Shown: positions 4,147-28,288 of the stretch, in pieces
How the letters are laid out: each line of letters opens with the position of its first letter
How positions within the stretch are numbered: the stretch's first letter is position 1
Source of the DNA: Chloroflexota bacterium
GTDB lineage: Bacteria; Chloroflexota; Dehalococcoidia; Lucifugimonadales; Lucifugimonadaceae
Assembly: GCA_013204545.1 (NCBI GenBank)
Contig: JABMNN010000001.1
Location: forward strand, 1 to 36,574
Reading direction: 5' to 3'
DNA: 36,574 nt
The notes under the pieces: model-generated
What the model saw: only the letters and a program-made list of their open reading frames with translations
Told to the model about the DNA's origin: nothing
Database searches by the model: none
Translations under genes and position numbers: made by a program

Positions 4147-4226
4147 GGAACATCTGAGTGACTGCTCCCCGCCTAGGGTGTGGCCTCATGGTGATAGCCT
4201 CCTACGGAACGGATGTCACCTGTGGA

Positions 4227-4254
4227 CCCTTGACGATGCAGTCAGGGGTTTTTT
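4227..4254 (+). terminator. Riboswitch-controlled intrinsic terminator
   Basis: Arms CCCTTGAC (4227-4234) and GTCAGGGG (4241-4248) pair over 8 bp with one U-G wobble around a GATGCA loop, followed at once by six T (4249-4254). It lies between the cobalamin aptamer and the permease start and is the likely OFF state of the riboswitch. The 3' arm also holds an AGGGG that could serve as the ribosome site of the TTG at 4256, so the same hairpin could block translation too. Confidence 0.8.
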
Positions 4255-4255
4255 A

Positions 4256-5329
4256 TTGGCGACGGATTTCGGTAGCAGTGTGCAGCGTGTTTCGACTGGC
4301 TCAACAGTATTGAGACGGTTGCTCATTGGAACGCTTTTGCTTGGTGCTTTGACGGTGTTGGTGACTATCGTTGCGGCATCGGTTGGTCCGTTCAGCGTTC
4401 CTTTCACGCATACTGCGACGACTCTGCTCGATTTGATCGGGATCGGTGAGTCGACAGCGAAACCGACCGAACAAGCGATTATTCAGAGCATAAGGCTTCC
4501 GCGTATTTTTCTTGCTTTCATCGTTGGTGCTGCTCTGGGAATTTCAGGCGGGATCATGCAGGGCTTATTCCGTAATTCGATGGCGGATCCTGGAATTATT
4601 GGTGTTTCGAGTGGTGGTGCTACTGGTGCTGTTATCGCGATTGCTACGGGTGCCAGCACTGTTTCAACTTTCTTTTTGCCTTTGTTCGCGTTCATTGGCT
4701 CGGCCGTATCGATGGCAGTTGTTTTTTTGATCGCTTCAGTGGGTGGGCGGTTTTCGATGACGACTCTGTTGCTTGGCGGAATCGCAGTCAGTTCATTTCT
4801 TGGCGCAATTACAACTGCGACGATCATATTGACCGACGATTTGAATGTTCAGCGTCAGATTATTTTCTGGATTGCAGGCGGATTCGATACCGCGCGATGG
4901 GAGTCGGTTCAGATTGTGGCTCCTATCATCGTCGTGGGCGCGCTGATAACCATTTTTGCGGCTCGTGACCTGAACTTGCTCTTGATTGGTGAGGATGAGG
5001 CGCGGGCGTTGGGTGTGCGAGTGACTTTGGTTCGTAACACGCTTTTGATTTCAGCTTCTTTGATTACGGGTGCTGCCGTAGCGTATTCAGGAATTATTGC
5101 CTTCGTAGGCTTAGTGGTTCCGCACGTCGTGCGGTTGATCGTTGGTGCGGATCATCGGGTTCTTCTCCCGTTGAGTGCGCTTGGGGGTGGATTGTTTTTA
5201 CTGGTCGCGGATACTGCGGCTCGGATTGTGCTTTCGCCTGCTGAACTGAGGGTAGGAGTGCTGACGGCGTTGATTGGGGCACCGTTTTTTATTTACTTGC
5301 TCGTGCATTCGCGGGCGAGGTTGATTTAG
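4256..5329 (+). CDS. BtuC/FecCD-type ABC transporter permease, probably for corrinoids
   Basis: A membrane permease of about 357 residues in the FecCD (type II) importer family. It shows the family's RLPR.FLAF..GAALGISGG.MQG..RN..ADPG block, and near the C-terminus GLVVPHVVRLIVGADHR, with roughly ten membrane helices. The family moves vitamin B12, haem or ferric siderophores; the upstream cobalamin riboswitch points to corrinoids. The open frame extends to a GTG at 4178, but that start lies inside the riboswitch expression platform and would translate the terminator, so TTG 4256 (AGGGG ribosome site) or GTG 4280 is more likely. The binding protein and ATPase genes follow on the same strand. 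Confidence 0.88.
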   Translation: MATDFGSSVQRVSTGSTVLRRLLIGTLLLGALTVLVTIVAASVGPFSVPFTHTATTLLDLIGIGESTAKPTEQAIIQSIRLPRIFLAFIVGAALGISGGIMQGLFRNSMADPGIIGVSSGGATGAVIAIATGASTVSTFFLPLFAFIGSAVSMAVVFLIASVGGRFSMTTLLLGGIAVSSFLGAITTATIILTDDLNVQRQIIFWIAGGFDTARWESVQIVAPIIVVGALITIFAARDLNLLLIGEDEARALGVRVTLVRNTLLISASLITGAAVAYSGIIAFVGLVVPHVVRLIVGADHRVLLPLSALGGGLFLLVADTAARIVLSPAELRVGVLTALIGAPFFIYLLVHSRARLI

Positions 5330-6735: not shown

Positions 6736-8094
6736 TTGAGAAATTCAGTTTCTATAGAGAGCGAGTTGCTGGCTGCTAATGGCATGCTGGAGGATTCGGC
6801 TGTGCTTCGGGTTGAGGGGCTTTCAACGAAGTTAGACGGGAAGTCGATTGTCGATTCAGTCTCGTTTTCGGTGAATCGGGGTGAGGTTGTTGGTGTGGTT
6901 GGGGCGAATGGCAGTGGTAAGACGACTTTGATGCGAACGGTAGCGGGTCTGTTGACGGCGAATTCGGGCGAGATTGTTATCGATGGAACTTCGTTCGGTC
7001 ATGCGAGTGGCGGAGCGTCTCGACAGGAACGATCACGTAAAGTGGCGTACATGCCGCAGTTGGCGGTGAGTCACCCTTTTACCGCGTTCGAATCGGTGTT
7101 GATGGGTCGTTATCCGCACTTAGGTAGATTCGAGCTTGAGGGCTCGGGAGATCGTGATCTGGCGTGGCAGGCGATGGAGCGGACGTCGACTGTCGAGTTC
7201 GCTAATCGAAAGCTGGACACGTTATCGGGTGGAGAGCGTCAGCGGGTGGTTCTGGCGAGGGTGTTGGTTCAACAGGCAGATGTGTTGTTAATGGATGAGC
7301 CGACGGCTTCACTGGACTTAAGGCATCAGATTCTGACGATGGATTTGGTGCGAGAAGAGGTGAGGGACAGGAATGCTGCTGTGGTTGTGATCTTGCACGA
7401 TCTATCGCTGGCGGCTCGATTTTGTGATCGGCTAGTGGTGCTGGATGGGGGCAAAAAGCTAGCCGAGGGTACGCCGTGGGAGGTTTTGACTCCGAGCAAT
7501 TTGCGCGCTGCATTTGGTGTGGAGGGTTTGGTCGAACCTGATCCGGTGACCGGCAAGCCGCACGTGTTGTTGCTAGGGAGCGATAATTCGTCTAAAGAGG
7601 ATCTAGTGGGGACGGGTCGGACAGTGCATTTGATTTGCGGAGCCGGAAGTGGTCGTGAGCTGATGCACCAACTTCGGGTCGCCGGGTACGACGTGACGGT
7701 TGGGGTTTTGGGCATTGGCGATTCAGATCGTGAGGCGGCTGAGCGGCTGGGGCTGAACTATGTTGCAGCGCCGCCGTTCGCGAGTATTACGGACGAGCAG
7801 CACGAGGCTCATTTGGAGTTGGTGAAAGCGGCGGATCACGTTGTGTTGTGCGCGATGGCGGTCGGGTTGAATAACGTTCGAAATGTGGTGGCTGCCACTG
7901 CTGCTTCGAACTTGATCATGATCGAGCCCCTGGAGCGGGTCGGCGATCTTGAGCTTGATGTTGCGACTGGGGTTCCTGATTTCACTGACGGTATTGCCGA
8001 CGAGCTTCGTCGAGGGATGATCGAGAAATTCGGTGAGATTCCGGAATCGACGTTGCTGTTTGAATTGGCGCGCTCGCGAGGCGAGGATTTATGA
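6736..8094 (+). CDS. BtuD-like ABC ATPase with extra C-terminal domain
   Basis: The ATPase of the importer, 452 residues from the TTG at 6736 (ATG 6784, residue 17, is an equally possible start). Residues about 21-265 are a complete ABC domain: Walker A GANGSGKTT (56-64), PYMPQ-like Q-loop near 105-108, signature LSGGE (163-167), Walker B LLMDEPT (184-190) and switch H221. After a PDPVTGKPH segment (268-276) comes a second domain of about 160 residues that begins with T-V-H-L-I-C-G-A-G-S-G-R-E-L and looks Rossmann-like. A normal BtuD or FhuC ends near 260 residues. Related tails occur on some haloarchaeal BtuD proteins as far as I recall; the role is unknown, with nucleotide or corrinoid sensing a possibility. 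Confidence 0.88.
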   Translation: MRNSVSIESELLAANGMLEDSAVLRVEGLSTKLDGKSIVDSVSFSVNRGEVVGVVGANGSGKTTLMRTVAGLLTANSGEIVIDGTSFGHASGGASRQERSRKVAYMPQLAVSHPFTAFESVLMGRYPHLGRFELEGSGDRDLAWQAMERTSTVEFANRKLDTLSGGERQRVVLARVLVQQADVLLMDEPTASLDLRHQILTMDLVREEVRDRNAAVVVILHDLSLAARFCDRLVVLDGGKKLAEGTPWEVLTPSNLRAAFGVEGLVEPDPVTGKPHVLLLGSDNSSKEDLVGTGRTVHLICGAGSGRELMHQLRVAGYDVTVGVLGIGDSDREAAERLGLNYVAAPPFASITDEQHEAHLELVKAADHVVLCAMAVGLNNVRNVVAATAASNLIMIEPLERVGDLELDVATGVPDFTDGIADELRRGMIEKFGEIPESTLLFELARSRGEDL

Positions 8095-8235: not shown

Positions 8236-9231
8236 TTGAAGGTTTTATTTGTTGGCGGTACGGGGAAGATAAGTTCGGCAGTTACGGCTTTAGCGGTCGA
8301 GAAGGGCTTTGAACTTTATTTGCTGAATCGTGGGGTTACGGATCGTCCGGTGCCGGCGGGTGCGAAGGTGATCAAGGGCGATATGAACGACCCTGCATCG
8401 GTTAAAGCTGCGTTGGGCGATTTGAAGTTCGACGCTGTCGTGAACTGGATCGCTTTTACGGAAGAGCACATCGAGAGAGATATCGAGCTGTTCCGGGACC
8501 GCACAAATCAGTACATTTTCATTAGCTCGGCCTCGGCTTATCAGTCGCCACCAGTGAACTTGCCGGTTACTGAGTCGACTCCACTGGATAATCCTTACTG
8601 GCAGTATTCACGAGACAAGGCCGCTTGTGAGGATCGATTGACGCGGGCGTACAAGGAAGAGAAGTTCCCGTTTACGGTGGTTCGCCCTTCACACACGTAT
8701 GACAAGACGATGTTGCCGTTTCAGGGTGGCTGGACGGTGGTTGACCGGATGCGAAAAGGCAAGAAAATTCTCGTTCACGGCGATGGATCTTCACTCTGGG
8801 TATTCACACACCACACCGATTTTGCGAAGGGCTTTGTGGGTCTACTCGGCAACAATCGAGCGATTGGTGAGGCGTTCCACATCACTTCAGACGAGCTTTT
8901 GACGTGGAACCAGTTGCATGAGATTGCGGGTCGTGCTGCCGGTGCGCCGCCGCTGAATATTGTTCATGTACCTTCGGATTTGATCAATGCATTTGATCCG
9001 GCTTGGGGTGCGGGTTTACTCGGCGACAAGGCTGCGAGCATGGTTTTCGACAATACGAAGATTAAGCGGTTATCTCCGGAGTTCATGTGCACGGTTCCTT
9101 ATGCGCAGGGTGCGCAGGAGATGGTGGAGTGGTACGACGCTGATCCATCTAGGCGGGTTGTTGATGAAGAGTTCAACGCTTTGACGGATCGGATTATTGC
9201 GGCGTATGAACGGGTGTGGCCAAAGAGCTAA
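8236..9231 (+). CDS. NAD-dependent epimerase/reductase (extended SDR)
   Basis: An extended short-chain dehydrogenase of about 331 residues. The N-terminus is K-V-L-F-V-G-G-T-G-K-I-S, a GGTGxI NAD(P)-binding motif of the atypical epimerase group. F-I-S-S-A-S-A-Y then S-R-D-K-A-A-C-E follows, so the usual active-site Tyr-x3-Lys appears as S-R-D-K, with the Tyr position uncertain. V-V-R-P-S-H-T-Y-D is the usual mid-domain motif. Substrates are probably nucleotide sugars or a related polyol, but cannot be read from sequence. The start is TTG 8236, chosen because AGAGGG sits five bases upstream; a TTG at 8218 has no ribosome site. It is convergent with cobQ. Confidence 0.82.
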   Translation: MKVLFVGGTGKISSAVTALAVEKGFELYLLNRGVTDRPVPAGAKVIKGDMNDPASVKAALGDLKFDAVVNWIAFTEEHIERDIELFRDRTNQYIFISSASAYQSPPVNLPVTESTPLDNPYWQYSRDKAACEDRLTRAYKEEKFPFTVVRPSHTYDKTMLPFQGGWTVVDRMRKGKKILVHGDGSSLWVFTHHTDFAKGFVGLLGNNRAIGEAFHITSDELLTWNQLHEIAGRAAGAPPLNIVHVPSDLINAFDPAWGAGLLGDKAASMVFDNTKIKRLSPEFMCTVPYAQGAQEMVEWYDADPSRRVVDEEFNALTDRIIAAYERVWPKS

Positions 9232-9301
9232 ACGATGCTTGGTAAGGCGAGGTTTGCTGCCTAGCTTCCGACATTGTGGGTGTCGAGAGTGATCCAATAG
9301 T

Positions 9302-9324
9302 TATCGCCGGATGATTTGGCGATA
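9302..9324. terminator. Possible weak hairpin terminator between convergent genes
   Basis: Seven-base arms TATCGCC and GGCGATA surround a 9-nt loop, followed by only a short T-rich stretch. It lies between the convergent epimerase and cobQ genes. Confidence 0.35.
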
Positions 9325-9342
9325 TTTAGTGGTTGATCGTCC

Positions 9343-9372
9343 ATTGCTACGTCGTTCCTCCTCACAATGACA
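9343..9372. repeat. REP-like intergenic repeat, copy 1
   Basis: A 30-bp element whose core ACGTCGTTCCTCCTC-ACAATGACA recurs at 35645-35674 with 29 of 30 bases identical. On the other strand it reads TGTCATTGTGAGGAGG..., the style of the widespread TGTCATTGCGAGG repeat of many bacterial genomes. It lies in the gap before the 3' end of cobQ. Confidence 0.65.
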
Positions 9373-9388
9373 AATCAGTCGGAGTCGT

Positions 9389-10984
9389 TCAATCAATTAG
9401 CGATTTGATGAAATCCATGTCGATGGCTGTGCGGACGGTATGAGCCAGACGGTCGTACTCAGCTTCCATTGAAAATTCCTCGATAGTTGGTTTGGGTAGG
9501 TTGTGGGTTTCGGCAGTGGTGTTCAGGAGTCGCCGGAGTATTTCAGGCGAGTCGAAGATACCGTGGACGTAGGAGCCGATGATTGGGAGGTCGGGTGCGG
9601 CTGTGCCGTCGGGCCATGTGATGGTTGAGGTTTGGTCGTTGGTGGCTGGGTCGGCGTTTCCACTCAACCTAGCCTTCTCCCTTAGGGAGAAGGAATCAGG
9701 GGATAGATCGGCGGATAGTTGGGCGAGGTAGGCTGGCGCACCGATTGTTATGCCAGTGTGGATTTCGTAGCCGGTTCCGGTGGCGTGTGGTCCTTTTAGC
9801 GGACCGCGTTCGTGGGCTGGGATTTCGATGTTGACTCGGCGTGTGGTTTTCTTGGTATCGAAGACCGTTTTGATTGGGAGTAGTCCGATGCCTTGTTCAG
9901 ACTGGGGAGTGGCTGATTCTGTGGCATCGGGATCGTCGAGGTGCCGACCGAGTATTTGGTAGCCACCGCAGATTCCTACGATTGTGACGTTGCGGTTTGC
10001 GGCTTCGATTATTGCGGAGTCGAGTCCTCGGGATTTCATCCATCGGAGATCGGCGATGGTGCTTTTCGAACCGGGGATGATGATTATGTGGGCGGGTATA
10101 AGTTCATGCGGATTGGTGACGATTCGGACTCGGCAGCCAGCCCGACGGAACGGGTCGAGGTCATCGTGATTTGAGACTCTTGGTAGCCCTATTACTGAGA
10201 CCTGAAGTGCTGCCGAACCGCTCGGAGGATCGTAGTCGCCGAAGGTTACGCCATCTTCATCTTTTACTTGGAGATCGTAGATAAAGGGGATGACTCCTGC
10301 GACCGGAACGCCGGTGCGTTCAGCGATCATTTCGGGGAGTGGGTGGAGGAGGGTGATATCGCCTCGGAAACGGTTGATGAGCGTGGCTTTTACGAGTGAT
10401 CGTTCTTCGCGTGTGAGCAACTCCATCGTGCCTAGTAGCGAGGCGAAGACACCTCCTCTGTCGATGTCTCCGATAAGGATTACAGATGCATTGGCGTAGG
10501 CAGCCATTCGCATGTTCACGATATCGCGATCACGGAGATTTACTTCGGCAGGTGAGCCTGCACCCTCGAGTACGATCACGTCATATTCAGAGGCTAGTCG
10601 ATCATAGGCTTCGGTCACTGCCGTCCAGACTTCAGATTGATCGCCCCAGTATTTTCGTGCTTCGAAGCTGCCAACTGATTTGCCGTTGATAACGACTTGC
10701 GAACGGCTGTCGGCTTCGGGTTTAAGCAGGACGGGGTTCATGTCGGTATGCGGCTCGACTCCGGCTGCTTGGGCTTGAACTACTTGGGCACGCCCCATCT
10801 CTCCTCCGTCGGCGGTGACATAGGAGTTATTGGACATGTTTTGGGCTTTGAACGGAGCTACCTTGATGCCATCTTGAGCAAGGATTCGGCAGAGTGCAGC
10901 CGTCATGACGCTCTTGCCAACAGAAGAGCTGGTGCCTTGGATCATGAGTGCCTTGGCACGTTTACTTTTCTGATGGGATGACAC
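9389..10984 (-). CDS. cobQ: Cobyric acid synthase (CobQ)
   Basis: This enzyme amidates four side-chain carboxylates of adenosyl-cobyrinic acid a,c-diamide using glutamine and ATP. Residues about 10-240 are the DTBS-like ATPase domain with P-loop QGTSSSVGKS (16-25) and the AQNMSNNSYVT block. The C-terminal half is a class I glutamine amidotransferase-like domain with the nucleophile in GICGGYQILG (Cys339) and catalytic His in S-Y-V-H-G (His474). The start is GTG 10984, since K-A-K-A-L-M-I-Q-G is the usual N-terminus. Residues about 427-442 (SPDSFSLREKARLSG) are an unusual insertion encoded by a palindromic repeat. It lies 23 bp after the phosphatase gene, so the two are probably co-transcribed. 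Confidence 0.96.
   Translation of the reverse strand: MSSHQKSKRAKALMIQGTSSSVGKSVMTAALCRILAQDGIKVAPFKAQNMSNNSYVTADGGEMGRAQVVQAQAAGVEPHTDMNPVLLKPEADSRSQVVINGKSVGSFEARKYWGDQSEVWTAVTEAYDRLASEYDVIVLEGAGSPAEVNLRDRDIVNMRMAAYANASVILIGDIDRGGVFASLLGTMELLTREERSLVKATLINRFRGDITLLHPLPEMIAERTGVPVAGVIPFIYDLQVKDEDGVTFGDYDPPSGSAALQVSVIGLPRVSNHDDLDPFRRAGCRVRIVTNPHELIPAHIIIIPGSKSTIADLRWMKSRGLDSAIIEAANRNVTIVGICGGYQILGRHLDDPDATESATPQSEQGIGLLPIKTVFDTKKTTRRVNIEIPAHERGPLKGPHATGTGYEIHTGITIGAPAYLAQLSADLSPDSFSLREKARLSGNADPATNDQTSTITWPDGTAAPDLPIIGSYVHGIFDSPEILRRLLNTTAETHNLPKPTIEEFSMEAEYDRLAHTVRTAIDMDFIKSLID
9659..9706. repeat. Palindromic repeat inserted in frame within cobQ
   Basis: Perfect 9-bp arms CCTTCTCCC (9673-9681) and GGGAGAAGG (9685-9693) surround TTA, followed by AATCAGGGGAT. 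The same GGAGAAGGAAT.AG motif occurs between genes near 18354-18371. Here it is read in frame as a Ser/Arg/Lys/Leu-rich peptide in the amidotransferase domain. Confidence 0.7.
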
Positions 10985-20672: not shown

Positions 20673-21389
20673 TTGATTATTCGTAGGAGTGAGCAGGAAC
20701 CGACGGATCGGTATCCGGGGTGTCCTCGATTTGCGATTGCGGGCGCCGATTTTGGGCATTCGAGTTTGCACGTTGGTGATCTTTCATATCTGCCGGGGTT
20801 CGGTGTGCCGCATCACTACCACACCGGCGGGGCTGAAGAGACTCAGATCATGCTCGAAGGCGAGCTTGAGTGTTGGGTCGATGGCAAGCGAGTGATTGTG
20901 TATCCGGGCGATACGGTTACGGCTCCTCCGGGTACAGGCCACGCATTTCATAATCTGACCCAGACTGTAGGTCGAATGATCACAGCGTTTCCGCTTACTC
21001 CGCCTGAAACAATTCACATTGATGATCCAGAATTGGAGGATGCTATTTCTCATCCTGCAATCGTTCGGTCTGATAGTCGCAGGAAGCCTTATGGGGATGG
21101 CGTCGACGGCGTCGAGAAGGTCGAGCTTTCGGGTGATTTCTCGGGTGCAAAATCTACCTATTCGTACTTCGTTGACATTCAGCCAACCGCTTCGATGCCC
21201 GTAGAAACATTTGAAGCCGAGACAGCGATATTCGTCGTAACAGGGTCCGTCTTTTCTATAGTCGGTGATGAGTTTGAACTTAATACTGACGATGGTGCGG
21301 TTGTTGCGCCGAACGAATCGTATGGATTCGCCAATCGAGGTAGTGAAGTTGCTCGGTTGTGCGTAGTTCATCCGTTCTTGAACAGTTAG
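20673..21389 (+). CDS. Bicupin protein, N-terminal cupin metal site intact
   Basis: A 238-residue protein with two cupin barrels. The first has a full set of likely metal ligands: H48, H50 (P-H-H-Y-H), E55 or E56, and H90 in G-T-G-H-A-F-H. The second barrel (about residues 150-238) reads M-P-V-E-T-F-E-A-E-T-A-I-F-V and lacks the paired histidines, so it has probably lost its metal. Bicupins include oxalate decarboxylase, dioxygenases and sugar isomerases; the specific reaction is unknown. The start is TTG 20673 after a GAAGGATTTGAG purine-rich stretch; no in-frame ATG is nearby. It is a paralogue of the gene at 21497, probably by tandem duplication. Confidence 0.85.
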   Translation: MIIRRSEQEPTDRYPGCPRFAIAGADFGHSSLHVGDLSYLPGFGVPHHYHTGGAEETQIMLEGELECWVDGKRVIVYPGDTVTAPPGTGHAFHNLTQTVGRMITAFPLTPPETIHIDDPELEDAISHPAIVRSDSRRKPYGDGVDGVEKVELSGDFSGAKSTYSYFVDIQPTASMPVETFEAETAIFVVTGSVFSIVGDEFELNTDDGAVVAPNESYGFANRGSEVARLCVVHPFLNS

Positions 21390-21496
21390 ATATGATGTTG
21401 GTTACGACACAGTTTTGGCAATCCTTGTAAACTATCGCATCTTGAATTCAATCGTTGCTGGGCTGGTTTGTATTAGCCCTCCTGAAAGTAGTTGAT

Positions 21497-22237
21497 ATGA
21501 CAATCCTCCGACGTGCTGATCAAGAAGAGTCCTCTCCGATGGAGGGCGGAAAGCTGCTGACTATGGCTGGTAGCTCGACGGGTGCTGCGATGGCGACTGT
21601 CGGCGATTTGACCGTTCAGCCAGGTGTGATCTCTGGATATCACCTTCATCCGAACACGGAAGAGGCGATTTTCGTCGTCGACGGTGAAATGGAGTTTCGG
21701 GTTGGGCGTGCTCGATTTCGAGCCTCGTCGGGCGATTGTGTTTTAGCTCCTGCGGGGATTGGCCATGGCCTTGAGAATGTTGGTGATTCACCGGCGCGCT
21801 TGATCACGATTTATCCTACTGCAGAGCCTCAACGTGAGGCATTGCAGGATGTTGAGTACTCGGATGGCGATCCGCCTTCGACTGTTTTTGTTCGCAGCAA
21901 CAACGAACCTTACGAGTTTATGGCTGGGGTTTCTCGCTACGATATGGTTGGTGATTTCTTGGGTTCGGTTTCGCTTTATATGAGCGAACTTACTTTTGCA
22001 CCAGGATCGATTGCGCCGAATCACTATCATCCCGGTCATGAAGAGTCGATGTTCTGTCTCGAAGGCAGTTTGGTTGCGGTCTATGCGGATGAAAACAATG
22101 TTCCGCTGGCTGCTGGAGATTGCTTTACTTGCGAGATTGGGATTCGCCATGGTATTTACAATACGAGTAGTGAACCGGCGAAATTGCTGGCAATTCACCC
22201 CGTGTTGAATCCGCCGCCACGGATCGATGTGGAATAG
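21497..22237 (+). CDS. Bicupin protein, both metal sites present
   Basis: A 246-residue paralogue of the preceding gene (compare M-T-I-L-R-R-A-D-Q-E with M-I-I-R-R-S-E-Q-E). The first cupin has H49, H51, E55 and H90; the second has H176, H178, E182 or E183 and H218, so both barrels can bind metal. This contrasts with the neighbour, whose second site has decayed. The start is ATG 21497; a longer frame from 21455 would add a non-family N-terminus. Dioxygenase, isomerase or decarboxylase activity on the substrate of the neighbouring dehydrogenase is a plausible guess. It is convergent with the SelA-like gene. Confidence 0.85.
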   Translation: MTILRRADQEESSPMEGGKLLTMAGSSTGAAMATVGDLTVQPGVISGYHLHPNTEEAIFVVDGEMEFRVGRARFRASSGDCVLAPAGIGHGLENVGDSPARLITIYPTAEPQREALQDVEYSDGDPPSTVFVRSNNEPYEFMAGVSRYDMVGDFLGSVSLYMSELTFAPGSIAPNHYHPGHEESMFCLEGSLVAVYADENNVPLAAGDCFTCEIGIRHGIYNTSSEPAKLLAIHPVLNPPPRIDVE

Positions 22238-23541: not shown

Positions 23542-24681
23542 TCAATCCTGTGCAGATACAACAAACGCAAAGGTATCCGCGATTTCTTCGTTTGTCCGAC
23601 GGAGTATCGAACTGTTCACATGTAATAAAGGAAGCGGCCACTCACTCTTTAGCCAAGGAATCACGATGCCGAAATTAAGCAGAGATTCGACGAATTGATC
23701 TGTATCGATTTCGGCATCCAAATGTAACTCAAAGACGTTGGAGCCATGCTCGAACGGGTGAATTTCGATTCCTGGTAGTTTGTTCACAACAGTGAAAAGT
23801 GCGTTTGCCTTGGCGAGTGATTCACGAAAACGATCAACAAACCCATCCATTCCATTCATAGAAAGCGCGGTAGCTAAGTACCCCGATGGCAAGCCACCAC
23901 CGAACATGCGGCGGTCGTGGAACATGCCCCCGATAAACTCACGGGTTCCAGCGAGAATGGCGCCGAACGGTGATCCAAAATATTTCCATGTCGAAACGTA
24001 GACACTATCGAATAATTCAGCATATTCCTTGATGCCCACATCCGTTGAAGCCGACATCATGTACAGTCTGGCTCCGTCCAAATGAACAGGAATACCCGCC
24101 TTATTGCATAATAGAGTTATCGCCTGCATATCGTCCCACGGAACGATTTGGCCCGCTTGACGTCTTACCGGACTTTCGATCGAAATAGCCCCTACCGGGT
24201 TCAAAACCCTACCACTAACGGAGGAATGTAAAGCTTCCTGCAATTCACTAGCTGTGAAATATGGCTTGTCCTTCGCGAGAGGAATGGGGTTAAGTCCACT
24301 CAGTCGTACGAGTGCGTCGCCCTCATCTTGATAGATGTGGCTCTGCTCCTGCAAAACGACTCTCGCATTGGTTCCGCTGTGCCGCCTCAGAGCCAAATGG
24401 TTTGCCAATGTACCTGTCGGCATCCAAATGGCAGCTTCTTTACCTAGTTCATCCGCCATTCGACGTTCAAATACCTCGACACCGCCGCCCAAAGAGTAGG
24501 TGTCTGGGTGAAGATCACCTGCTGCAAGCATTGTTTGAAGTCGCTCAATAATCGACTCGGGCGATTGCGGTTCTCCGTCTCCCGAAAACACTATCGATTC
24601 CGGAGCACGCGTTAGTTCAGCACGACGTTTAGCCAAGTCTGGTTGAATGGTCGTATTGATCATTTGAGCCGTAAATCCCAC
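23542..24681 (-). CDS. Threonine aldolase-like PLP enzyme (beta-eliminating lyase family)
   Basis: A fold-type I PLP enzyme of 379 residues (GTG 24681) or 373 (ATG 24663), in the low-specificity threonine aldolase/beta-eliminating lyase group. H-L-D-G-A-R-L (about 200-206) carries the conserved Asp202 and Arg205, and S-V-Y-V-S-T-W-K-Y-F-G-S-P-F-G-A holds the PLP lysine, Lys233. Family members split threonine or other beta-hydroxy amino acids to glycine and aldehyde. The lysine loop reads S-T-W-K-Y-F rather than the common S-x-S-K-G-L, so a different substrate is possible. It is the first gene of a two-gene minus-strand operon with the SelA-like enzyme. Confidence 0.85.
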   Translation of the reverse strand: MGFTAQMINTTIQPDLAKRRAELTRAPESIVFSGDGEPQSPESIIERLQTMLAAGDLHPDTYSLGGGVEVFERRMADELGKEAAIWMPTGTLANHLALRRHSGTNARVVLQEQSHIYQDEGDALVRLSGLNPIPLAKDKPYFTASELQEALHSSVSGRVLNPVGAISIESPVRRQAGQIVPWDDMQAITLLCNKAGIPVHLDGARLYMMSASTDVGIKEYAELFDSVYVSTWKYFGSPFGAILAGTREFIGGMFHDRRMFGGGLPSGYLATALSMNGMDGFVDRFRESLAKANALFTVVNKLPGIEIHPFEHGSNVFELHLDAEIDTDQFVESLLNFGIVIPWLKSEWPLPLLHVNSSILRRTNEEIADTFAFVVSAQD

Positions 24682-25504
24682 TTGTGTACGATCATGTTGA
24701 CCGTTGTCATGAAAACCTCAAAAAGGATGCCCGGTAGCTATTGAGTAGATATTTTTATGAGCAGTGACATATTAGTTGGATAGTTATCTTAAAATGGCGC
24801 TTTCATCACCATTTATCGCAACAATGTTGCCCATTTCACGCCGTTTTTGATCAGATAGTTGTGAATACGATCCAAATTAGGATAGTTATGGGTAATTTAC
24901 TGATATTTCGTGGCGTGAATTTGGTCGTTTTTCCGCACACGAGAAATACCGAATCGCATTCTCAATTCAACAGAAATATTGCCTCGCAGATCTCAGTCAT
25001 TTACTGGTGATTGCTAATTCCACTGACAGATACAAAAACGTACCCCAACTGCGATCTGATGCGTAAAGGTTCAGGCAGTGTCTATTTAACGACATGCATA
25101 ATGGCATTCTTCACTCATTCAGGTGCGGAAGTTGCCGAAGCAAGACCCTAGTGATCGGCGATTCAGGAAATTCTATTTTTAGGTCACATTAGTTTTGTTG
25201 AGTCAGAAATCGGACTCTTTGTACATGGTAGGACAAAGACAGGACTTCGGCTTATGCACTGCGGGTCTTTCGTTCAAGTTGGTCGTTACGCAATCATCCA
25301 CACCTTTAGCAAACTTTATTCACATGTTGCGGTTTACCCCCATATTGTGTGGCGGTGTATTCACATCCGTCGTTTGAGGTTCGATAGATATTCTGCTTGT
25401 GAAGGTTTGGAAGTTTCGTATTCCGACCTCATTGCTGGACCTACTGAGGGGGGATCTCTTTATTGGTTCAACCGGTCGAATATCTTGAAGAAATTCTTGG
25501 AACT
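24682..25504. other. AT-rich intergenic region of about 0.8 kb
   Basis: No gene is supported: the short open frames on either strand lack family-like composition. The stretch is clearly richer in A and T than its surroundings up to about 25200. It separates the divergent PLP-enzyme operon from the archaellin-like gene, so it must contain promoters for both and a long leader for the latter. I could not identify a riboswitch motif. Confidence 0.5.
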
Positions 25505-26176
25505 ATGAACACTAGACAGCGTGGTATAACAGGACTGGAAACGGCGATCATCTTGATTGCGTTTGTGGTTGTGGCCTCTGTTTTCGCGTTTACGGTTTTG
25601 AGCACCGGTGTGTTCTCGGCCGAGCGAGCGAAAGAGACGATTTTTGCGGGGTTAGAGCAGACAAAGAGTAGTTTGCGTCCTTCTGGCAGTGTGATTGCGT
25701 TCAAGGGATTCGTAGGCGCTACCGAGGCGATCTTTAAGGTCAGCATGATTGTTGAGGCTGTCAATGGTGCAACGCCGATCGACGTCACTCCGCCTTACAC
25801 GGCTGACGGTGCAGGTACCGATCCGGATTTTTCGGGTACAACGAACAGGACGACTATCGCCTATATAGATGACAACCAGATTCTGCAGAACGTTCCGTGG
25901 TCGCTCAATTTTATGGGTAATGACAATGGCGATAATCTGCTTGATGACGGTGAGAAGGCTGAAATTGTTGTGTGGCTGCTGGATCGCACGACGGGTACTG
26001 CGATAACTGCAAACAGCTCTGTGAACTACATGTCGAGCGGTGGGTTAACTTCAGCGGGAACGCTTTTGACTCCCAACGACCAGTTCACACTTGAGGTTCA
26101 GCCTTCTTCTGGTGCGGTTTTGACTATTCGACGAACGCTTCCGGCTGCACTTGATACGGTATTGAACCTGCGGTAA
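25505..26176 (+). CDS. Archaellin-like protein with class III signal peptide
   Basis: A 223-residue secreted filament subunit. The N-terminus M-N-T-R-Q-R-G / I-T-G-L-E-T-A-I-I-L-I-A-F-V-V-V-A-S-V-F-A-F has a short basic leader, a Gly cleavage site for a prepilin/prearchaellin peptidase after residue 7, Glu at mature position 5, then a long unbroken hydrophobic helix. This helix strongly resembles archaellins rather than bacterial pilins. The C-terminal part is beta-rich and Thr/Asp/Gly-rich, as in archaellin outer domains, with D-N-D-G-D-N-L-L-D-D-G-E-K that could bind calcium. ATG 25505 fits the signal peptide; a longer frame from 25463 would bury it. No other archaellum gene lies in the window, so assembly machinery must be elsewhere or absent. 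Confidence 0.85.
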   Translation: MNTRQRGITGLETAIILIAFVVVASVFAFTVLSTGVFSAERAKETIFAGLEQTKSSLRPSGSVIAFKGFVGATEAIFKVSMIVEAVNGATPIDVTPPYTADGAGTDPDFSGTTNRTTIAYIDDNQILQNVPWSLNFMGNDNGDNLLDDGEKAEIVVWLLDRTTGTAITANSSVNYMSSGGLTSAGTLLTPNDQFTLEVQPSSGAVLTIRRTLPAALDTVLNLR

Positions 26177-26279
26177 CGGTGAGTGACGGTTTCCGTGGAA
26201 CAGGTCGGAAGTTAAGTTCAAGTGGAATGGTCACTGAAAATTACAAATTCGTGTGTACTTGATAAAGACTGTTAATTTG

Positions 26280-26310
26280 AAAAGGGAAGAGTTGAAACTC
26301 TTCCCTTTTT
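26280..26310. terminator. Strong bidirectional intrinsic terminator
   Basis: A 13-bp perfect stem: AAAAGGGAAGAGT (26280-26292) and ACTCTTCCCTTTT (26297-26309) around a TGAA loop, with T-rich flank on the plus strand and A-run on the minus strand giving U-tracts in both directions. It lies between the convergent archaellin-like and response-regulator genes. Confidence 0.9.
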
Positions 26311-26352: not shown

Positions 26353-27246
26353 TTAGACAGCCATTGAAGCGGAGCGTTTAAGGTTACGAAGAGCTTTTTT
26401 TACGCAGTCTCCGACCAGAACCTCAACTTTTCCAGCGTCGATAGGTTTCTCTAGAAAGTTGTTGATTCCAACGAAATTAGATTTTCTCTGTGTTTCTGGT
26501 GACAGTTTGTCAGACGTGATGATCCTGATTAGTTTTTTCTCTTTGAGGCCTCGTCGTAGACTCGAAAACATCTTGAATGTGTCCATGTCGGGTAGTGACC
26601 ATTCGGTAACAATAATGTCTGGGTCATAGTCTTTGATTGCTGCGATTCCTTCTCCTGCAGATTCAACTTCAATGAAGTCTTGATTCAGTCTGGCGAGGAT
26701 TGAGGCGATTTTGGAGCGACTTTCTTTATCGGGATCGATGATCACAGTGAATGTCTTGATTGCGTTGGGTGCGCTATCAGACACATGCAAGTTTTTGGGC
26801 TGTTCATCGGATGCAGGGCCTCCGAAAACGCTTGAACTTGTGATCGCCGGCTTGAGAGGCTCACGTTGCTTGAGTAAGTGAGATTGGACTCGAGCTGCGA
26901 GCTCTTCTATTCCTGTGGTTTTTAGGACAAAGTCGGTCGCGCCTTTGAGGATCGCTCCATTGACCAGTTCAACATCGTCGGCCGACGTAAACATGATGAT
27001 CGGAATGTCAGATGTTTGTCTGATGACGGCACAAACGTCGCTACCGTTCATCAACGGCATGTGCATATCGAGGATAGCGAGGTCGGGTTTGAATTCGGGG
27101 AACATCGTGACCGCTTCGTATCCATCGCGTGCAGCTTGAACGGTGTAATCAAGTTCGAGAAGAGTTTCGGTGAGCGCGTCACGTAGATCGACGGCATCTT
27201 CAGCGATGAGAATTCTTGAAGGAGTTGTTTCTGAGTTCGGACTCAA
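26353..27246 (-). CDS. Double-receiver response regulator
   Basis: A 297-residue protein with two receiver (REC) domains and no DNA-binding output. REC1 (about 11-125) is canonical: E16-D17, phospho-acceptor D60 in L-A-I-L-D-M-H-M-P, T87 and K109. After a Ser/Pro linker (126-163) REC2 (about 165-295) keeps D171/D173 and K267, but at the phospho site has Glu215 in I-V-T-E-W-S-L-P, so it is probably unphosphorylated or locked. The start is TTG 27246, with GGAAATACAAGA upstream. Its tandem paralogue is immediately upstream at 27394-28288. It probably signals by protein-protein contact, like CheY; the nearby filament gene is convergent, not in the same operon. Confidence 0.88.
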   Translation of the reverse strand: MSPNSETTPSRILIAEDAVDLRDALTETLLELDYTVQAARDGYEAVTMFPEFKPDLAILDMHMPLMNGSDVCAVIRQTSDIPIIMFTSADDVELVNGAILKGATDFVLKTTGIEELAARVQSHLLKQREPLKPAITSSSVFGGPASDEQPKNLHVSDSAPNAIKTFTVIIDPDKESRSKIASILARLNQDFIEVESAGEGIAAIKDYDPDIIVTEWSLPDMDTFKMFSSLRRGLKEKKLIRIITSDKLSPETQRKSNFVGINNFLEKPIDAGKVEVLVGDCVKKALRNLKRSASMAV

Positions 27247-27393: not shown

Positions 27394-28288
27394 CTACGCT
27401 GCTTTTCCTGCATTTCGTTTTTTGTTCCGTATTGTCTGCCGCACGCTGTCGGCAATCATCATTTCGACCTTGGCAGGATTTAGGGGTTTGACAAGGAAGT
27501 TTGTGATGCCTAAAAAGTGAGCTTTGCGCTGTGCTTCGGGAGACAGCCGAGCCGACATCATTACCGTGAGAAGTTCTTTGCCTCTTCGGACTCTTTTGAG
27601 TTCAGACAACATACTGAAACCATCATTATCTGGCAGTGACCATTCGCTGATAATGATGTCGGGACTGTGATGCTTAAACGCTGTGATTGCTTCGGTGGCA
27701 TTTGAGGCTTCCACTACACTTTGGTTCAGGCGTGTGAGCACAGATTTGATAATGGATCTGCTTTTTTCATCGGGGTCAATGATGAGCGTCGTGGTGGCCA
27801 GTCGTTTCCTTGGGGCCTCAGAAGCAGTTTTTATTTCACTTGGTGTCGTTTTGGTTGTTGCAAACTTCAATTTGTTGAGGTGGAAGGCAATTCGTTCGGT
27901 TAGTTCGATCATGCCGGTTGATTTCAATACGAAATCGGATGCGCCCTTCTTGATGGCATCTCGAACCTCGTCAGCATCATTGGACGAGGTGAATATTACT
28001 ACTGGGATCTGAGAACTTTGTCTAATAACAGCGCAAGTATCTGGCCCGCTCAATTTTGGCATTCTCATATCTAGGACGATGAGATCGGGATTGAATTCAT
28101 GGAAAAGAAGTGTTGCTTCGTGTCCGTCTCGTGCAGCCTTGACACGGTAGCCCTGTTCGAGCAGAACTAGGACGATTCCGTTACGCAGATCATCAGCGTC
28201 TTCAGCGACAAGAATTTTTGCTGCATGTGCTTTAGTTGTAGCTGAGCTTACTGGTTCGATCTCGGTTCCCCCCCAAATGATTGTTCAA
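27394..28288 (-). CDS. Double-receiver response regulator with a poly-G frame break at its 5' end
   Basis: A paralogue of the next gene downstream, about 290 residues. An internal ATG at 28068 is not the true start: in-frame sequence upstream encodes the rest of REC1, I-L-V-A-E-D-A-D-D-L-R-N through L-I-V-L-D-M-R-M-P. REC1 has acidic pair, phospho-Asp and K-S-T-G lysine; REC2 again has Glu for Asp (I-I-S-E-W-S-L-P). In the coding frame no ATG, GTG or TTG occurs between the REC1 start and a stop at about 28291. A TTG at 28288 begins a frame that would join if one G were removed from the run of seven G (28268-28274, minus strand). So the start is either a rare ATT/ATC, or the run is miscounted or length-variable. 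Confidence 0.75.
28268..28274 (-). repeat. Poly-G (7) tract at the 5' end of a response regulator
   Basis: Seven consecutive G on the minus strand lie 60-70 bp before the REC1 motif, exactly where the reading frame with a usable start codon loses register. Either a sequencing/assembly length error or a slippage-prone phase-variation site. Confidence 0.6.

Follow-up and report, generated by a model that had tools for sequence, protein, structure and literature searches.

We found that a marine SAR202-type Chloroflexota bacterium, a congener of Candidatus Lucifugimonas marina, encodes away from its archaellum locus an archaellin that is very probably a separately regulated alternative or minor subunit of the already known bacterial archaellum. 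The archaellin (ArlB/FlaB) gene lies at positions 25505 to 26176 (+ strand, ATG start, 223 aa) of the window, the 36,574-base stretch of DNA analysed here, which is an entire contig (C134) of the genome. Profile, sequence and fold comparisons confirm that the product is a genuine archaellin, the subunit of the archaeal-type motility filament. This constitutes another genome in which the Lucifugimonas group retains multiple diverged archaellins in addition to the archaellum locus; comparison with relatives indicates that at least one of these dispersed archaellins belongs to a class that is old, under selection and set in a neighbourhood of its own.

Identity of the archaellin

The protein encoded by the open reading frame 25505-26176 (+) begins with MNTRQRGITGLETAIILIAFVVVASVFAF, and its start is also given as MNTRQRGITGLETAII. 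An archaellin profile search, as the initial annotation had advised, matched the 223-aa protein to PF01917 (Arch_flagellin) with 73.9 bits (E 2.4e-20, cut-off 29.5) over positions 1-161 of the 162 of the profile, being this the only Pfam family at E <= 0.01. TIGR02537 ("archaellin/type IV pilin N-terminal domain") scored 30.2 bits over a cut-off of 20, and the sole other NCBIfam family listed was a flagellin subfamily scoring under its own cut-off. The class III signal peptide predicted for residues 1-7 (MNTRQRG/ITGLETAII) has a short charged leader, the G/xTGLE pattern and a hydrophobic helix. In the PDB sequence search the top match was 9i5h, the bacterial archaellum of Litorilinea aerophila (E 4.4e-30), and residue 1 of its chain C (ITALETAII) aligns to residue 8 of the window protein, so the predicted site RG/ITGLE is consistent with the solved chain and cleavage would take place between G7 and I8. 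The reading of the initial annotation, an archaellin-type protein distinct from ordinary type IV pilins and carrying a class III signal peptide followed by a hydrophobic helix, is thus upheld by PF01917, by TIGR02537, by the alignment of Ile8 with the mature start of 9i5h, and by the sequence and fold of 9i5h.

The initial annotation had also suggested a structure prediction of the beta-rich domain. The AlphaFold2 model, built from a 30-row alignment and of modest confidence (mean pLDDT 71.4, pTM 0.57), places a helix at about residues 10-53 followed by a beta-rich head. Foldseek searches with this model returned archaellins in 17 of 17 matches at E <= 0.001, with 9i5h ranked first and moderate TM-scores (0.37-0.47 by query length). 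The N-terminal, core-packing helix hardly differs from the helices of the other aligned archaellins, while the head differs from the heads of the cluster archaellins. In this head, an acidic cluster at residues 140-150 (DNGDNLLDDGE, codons at 25922 to 25954, + strand) aligns with part of the metal site of L. aerophila ArlB; D143, D147 and E150, taken by spacing, appear to match D127, E131 and E134 of that site (PMC12488501). Acidic residues align with most of the site, and D143 and E150 are invariant across the 30 aligned rows.

The archaellum machinery and other archaellins of the genome

The arl locus is found on another contig (C131), in agreement with the early view of an archaellin away from archaellum genes in a bacterial (Chloroflexota) genome. 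This locus opens with the likely C-terminal part of an archaellin and an acidic protein that matched no family, and continues with ArlG, a positional ArlF, ArlH, ArlI and ArlJ, followed by a histidine kinase and a LuxR-type response regulator. ArlI reaches 623.3 bits with NF058587 (cut-off 550). ArlH passes the cut-off of the FlaH model NF004723 (260.1 bits, cut-off 194), whereas it stays under that of the ArlH model NF052589 (198.5 against 215). The gene adjoining ArlI was assigned as ArlJ, since only ArlJ/FlaJ models were listed for it, the best being NF004703 with 392.8 bits and E 1.9e-117, under a cut-off of 570. ArlG matches NF052591 with 27.6 bits, under the cut-off of 110, and ArlF is a candidate by position (PF22201, E 0.071). 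As to ArlCDE, a search of the genome with PF04659 (ArlD/E) came back empty, and the expected place is occupied by the acidic protein (L014:365-1327) and a preceding 43-aa frame, neither of which matched a relevant family. A prepilin peptidase is encoded on C47 (Peptidase_A24, 68.4 bits, the only match in the genome); it also matches the bacterial N-terminal domain A24_N_bact with 24.6 bits (cut-off 23), whereas an archaeal-like PibD has been reported in SAR202 members (PMC12488501). The search of the genome for machinery, set beforehand as a refuting test should it come back empty, therefore returned ArlI, ArlJ, ArlH and a prepilin peptidase.

The PF01917 search of the whole genome gave ten places: seven archaellins, two short genes on C56 and the ArlG of C131. 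Of the seven archaellins, four are located on C97, C71, C132 and the window, and the other three form a tandem array that closes C42 and whose last member is truncated by the contig end. The gene had been described as standing alone; this is accurate for its contig, where it is the sole PF01917 match, but not for the genome, which holds six more archaellin-type genes. For this reason, and given the presence of ArlH, ArlI, ArlJ and the prepilin peptidase, the proposal of an isolated subunit forming a new surface filament does not stand.

A conserved archaellin class, its leader and its gene neighbourhood

We compared the window with 40 genomes, 18 of them from the same genus, which together with its own genome make 19 genus genomes. 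A window-type gene occurs in six of these (the own genome, G005, G009, G013, G014 and G017), with 74-85% identity to the window copy; the orthologue of strain JH1073 (G013, CP046147.1) is located at 675073-675747 and shares 84% identity over 223 aa. In a midpoint-rooted tree of 63 archaellins, from which short, divergent and broken copies were excluded, the six genes form one clade with support 100/100, recovered in 99% of 200 bootstrap trees. In none of the six orthologues does a stop codon occur in the matched part. The dN/dS ratios are rough estimates: saturation affects five of the 15 orthologue pairs, and the other ten all have a dS above 1. In these ten the ratios range from 0.041 to 0.114, which indicates that the class is under purifying selection. 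The orthologue of G017 (L056:64-729, - strand) shows no ATG at the aligned start and reads ...NITNTRERGITG.

The neighbourhood is also conserved. Two double-cupin genes (20673 to 22237, + strand) lie upstream of the archaellin, and both were found upstream of the orthologue in all five relatives. Downstream, a double receiver and CrcB are kept in four of the five, the fifth (G017) being cut by the contig end, and a zinc-finger gene in three. In the window, a SelA-like gene and a beta-eliminating lyase gene separate the cupins from the archaellin; neither had a match in the corresponding stretches of the five relatives.

Upstream of the gene, a conserved leader segment at 25320 to 25394 (+ strand) is common to the window-type class, in most of whose six members the leader is kept, and absent at the other archaellin genes examined; it is probably a regulatory region. 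Within up to 330 bases upstream (59 bases only in one of the 61 other archaellin genes), TGTGGYGGT was found in five of the six window-type genes and in none of the 61 others, TATTCT in all six and in one of the others, and TCAYAWGT in five and in one, respectively. As these motifs were chosen from the alignment of the same six leaders, only their absence elsewhere constitutes a test. The leader was initially annotated as AT-rich. Its G+C content is indeed lower than that of the flanks, but only mildly: 40.7-46.5% in the three 400-base windows that span 24400-25599, compared with 48-55% upstream and 44-54% downstream. A similar nuance applies to the strong terminator proposed after the gene. 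A terminator-like hairpin with a 14-bp stem and a 4-nt loop is present at 26279 to 26310, where the archaellin and double-receiver genes converge (-20.2 kcal/mol for 55 nt folded), but a strict terminator scan, whose number of sites was similar to that of shuffled sequences, did not list it, and neither the promoter nor the terminator scan gave anything above chance.

Double-receiver neighbours

The double-receiver genes announced by the initial annotation do adjoin the archaellin; there are two of them, downstream and on the opposite strand. RR2 (26353 to 27246, - strand) is a protein of 297 aa in which no output domain was found, and the second protein is encoded at 27394 to 28260 (- strand), with a possible ATC start at 28260. 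In its frame (27394-28284) there is no ATG, GTG or TTG before 28068, yet homology extends to 28233. A G-rich stretch precedes this gene and is followed by ACCGAGATC in the window genome and in G013, by ACCGAGATA in G014, which has an in-frame ATG slightly later, and by ATG in G005. It is thus possible that the second double receiver starts at ATC in two genomes, those of the window and G013.

In both proteins the first receiver keeps the Asp and the second one has Glu at a position that, from the motif, we read as that of the phosphoacceptor; this holds for all eight aligned rows from five genomes, an alignment that excluded the split G013 copy and the G009 remnant. In the former (JH1073, a one-contig genome; L052:8078-8964, - strand) the gene corresponding to the first double receiver is broken into two frames, of 205 and 192 aa, and in the latter (L055:4680-4811, - strand) a short remnant of a double-receiver end lies beside one intact copy.

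RR2-type double receivers (E <= 1e-40) and the window archaellin class occur in the same six of the 19 genus genomes, and the RR2 type was absent from the 21 other genomes searched. The two genes share a locus in the window and in four relatives; in G017, the RR2 match (49%) is on a different contig and the archaellin is at a contig end. The joint loss of genes linked in this way explains the co-occurrence. Sequence identity to RR2 is 55% in G009 and 49% in G017, close to the 51% shared by the two window paralogues. Among the receiver matches listed for G013, all that lie within 4 kb of an archaellin belong to the window-type locus. An association of archaellins with receivers as a general rule was considered and is unsupported, the cases being too few.

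The linkage may be mere neighbourhood. A bolder reading is that the archaellin and the two half-inactive double receivers form a co-inherited signalling module, which would time the production of the subunit or connect CheA/CheY-type signalling to the archaellum motor in SAR202-type bacteria. The latter role is conceivable because the archaeal adaptor CheF is absent in Chloroflexota (PMC12488501), though on the whole we consider the module improbable. We found no paper that describes a linkage of archaellum genes and double receivers; the main texts of PMC12488501 and PMC13319060 do not use the word "receiver", and the term "response regulator" is missing from the main text of PMC10444878.

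CheW, motor genes and loss of archaella across the genus

A CheW-domain match was found in nine of the 11 genus genomes with a clear archaellin and in none of the other eight (Fisher p 0.0007), where "clear" means a best E < 1e-40, a line drawn after the data were seen, and where the other eight include G010 (a broken copy, 5e-16), G001 and G011 (fragments). Among the nine, the matches of G007 and G008 carry stops and the sole match of G014 lies in a 713-aa, CheA-sized frame; G005 and G017 have archaellins and no CheW match. This co-occurrence weakly supports a role in motility. ArlI was matched in five of the 19 genus genomes, the own genome included, and also in G021. In G012, ArlJ is a piece at a contig start, so a missing ArlI or ArlJ can be an assembly break. 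This weakens the idea, which we had entertained, that motor-less relatives keep archaellins as a separate filament.

Archaellin copies with stops were observed in G004, G008, G010 and G015, and short fragments in G001 and G011. Taken with the stops in CheW of G007 and G008, they suggest that archaella have been lost repeatedly in the genus; G008, with stops in both its archaellin copy and CheW, looks like real decay.

Comparison with known archaella

Lim et al. (2023, PMC10444878) reported in Ca. L. marina, whose strains share at least 99.9% ANI, six tandem flaB genes followed by flaGFHIJ and six scattered flaB, and saw no archaella in SAR202 cells. In JH1073 we found six tandem archaellins, six scattered ones at >= 51% identity, of which the window orthologue is one, and a divergent seventh copy (35%); from the count, the six scattered copies are presumably those of Lim et al. 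Sivabalasarma et al. (2025, PMC12488501) showed that L. aerophila has a functional archaellum, and reported that the machinery appears to be encoded in 243 genomes of Chloroflexota. The window protein shares with that archaellum the fold and the class III cleavage site, and in both cases the machinery is encoded in the genome. The kind of gene described here is therefore already known, from the scattered flaB of the same genus and from the published archaella of Chloroflexota. However, the window copy comes from a different genome than Ca. L. marina, and we found in PMC10444878 no description of individual scattered copies or of the genes around them. Also, while archaellum-encoding Chloroflexota have arlB and the downstream machinery in one locus (PMC12488501), the window copy is unlinked and beside double receivers. 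What our sequence comparisons appear to add is the separate class, its purifying selection, its own leader and its conserved neighbourhood with double receivers.

Diverged archaellins in one cell are also known from Methanocaldococcus villosus, in which ArlB1 and ArlB2 alternate in one filament (PMC8821640), and from Halorubrum, with FlaB1 and FlaB2 (PMC7349177). In many species the archaellin homologues are in one operon (PMC8821640), whereas in the window genome they are dispersed.

Role of the window archaellin

The leader of its own, the terminator-like hairpin and the old separate class with its own neighbours make an alternative or minor subunit the probable role of the window archaellin. 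The host has archaellum genes of archaeal origin, and the window gene is one of several dispersed archaellin paralogues. Its product would most likely be secreted and cut after Gly7 by the type IV prepilin peptidase of the cell, and the ArlI/ArlJ/ArlH machine encoded on C131 would build it into the archaellum with the cluster archaellins, a mixed filament for which that of M. villosus (PMC8821640) serves as precedent. It may be used under different conditions, perhaps controlled by the adjacent receiver proteins. Why one bacterium has many archaellins, and whether the linked double receivers control the filament, thus become concrete targets for study.

Other explanations agree less well with these data. 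The same class, leader and neighbours, and a head unlike those of the cluster archaellins, would also suit a protein that forms a filament alone, adhesive or sensory, apart from the swimming archaellum; the almost identical core helix argues against it, as does the finding of a single ArlI match (E <= 1e-40) and a single ArlJ match (E <= 1e-10) in the own genome, and we regard a separate filament as unlikely. Still less probable is that the gene is a decaying leftover of an archaellum transfer, out of use. The broken and fragmentary copies of six relatives would fit such a history, but the window frame is intact, the low dN/dS ratios were obtained in ten of 15 pairs, and the orthologues are free of stops in their matched part and mostly retain the leader. 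As to an ordinary bacterial type IV pilin, the genome does encode a machine that could handle one (a PilB/GspE-type ATPase and a PilC/GspF-type platform, paired on C112); nevertheless, the profile, PDB sequence and fold searches all led to archaellins and rule it out for practical purposes. The alternative or minor archaellum subunit is thus our preferred reading.

Other archaellin-like genes

A divergent archaellin-like gene on C52 (L061:5207-5929, - strand), with 33-38% identity to the window copy, was found by protein search. This type has one match in each of nine genus genomes, and the seven fetched begin with (S/A)VAIEVAII. The surroundings of the C52 gene include a receiver-like gene at 4210-5043 and, at 8544-9467, a double receiver. 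The two adjacent short genes of C56 (L019:6472-6996 and 7229-7756, - strand) score 32.5 and 35.8 bits with PF01917, just above the cut-off; the pair gives weak ArlF matches and is distant from the arl locus. In G005, an archaellin-like frame of 575 aa (L072:2509-4233, - strand) is far above the usual copy size. Finally, the tandem archaellins of C42 adjoin a LuxR-type response regulator, and a similar receiver is located beside the tandem archaellins of G013.
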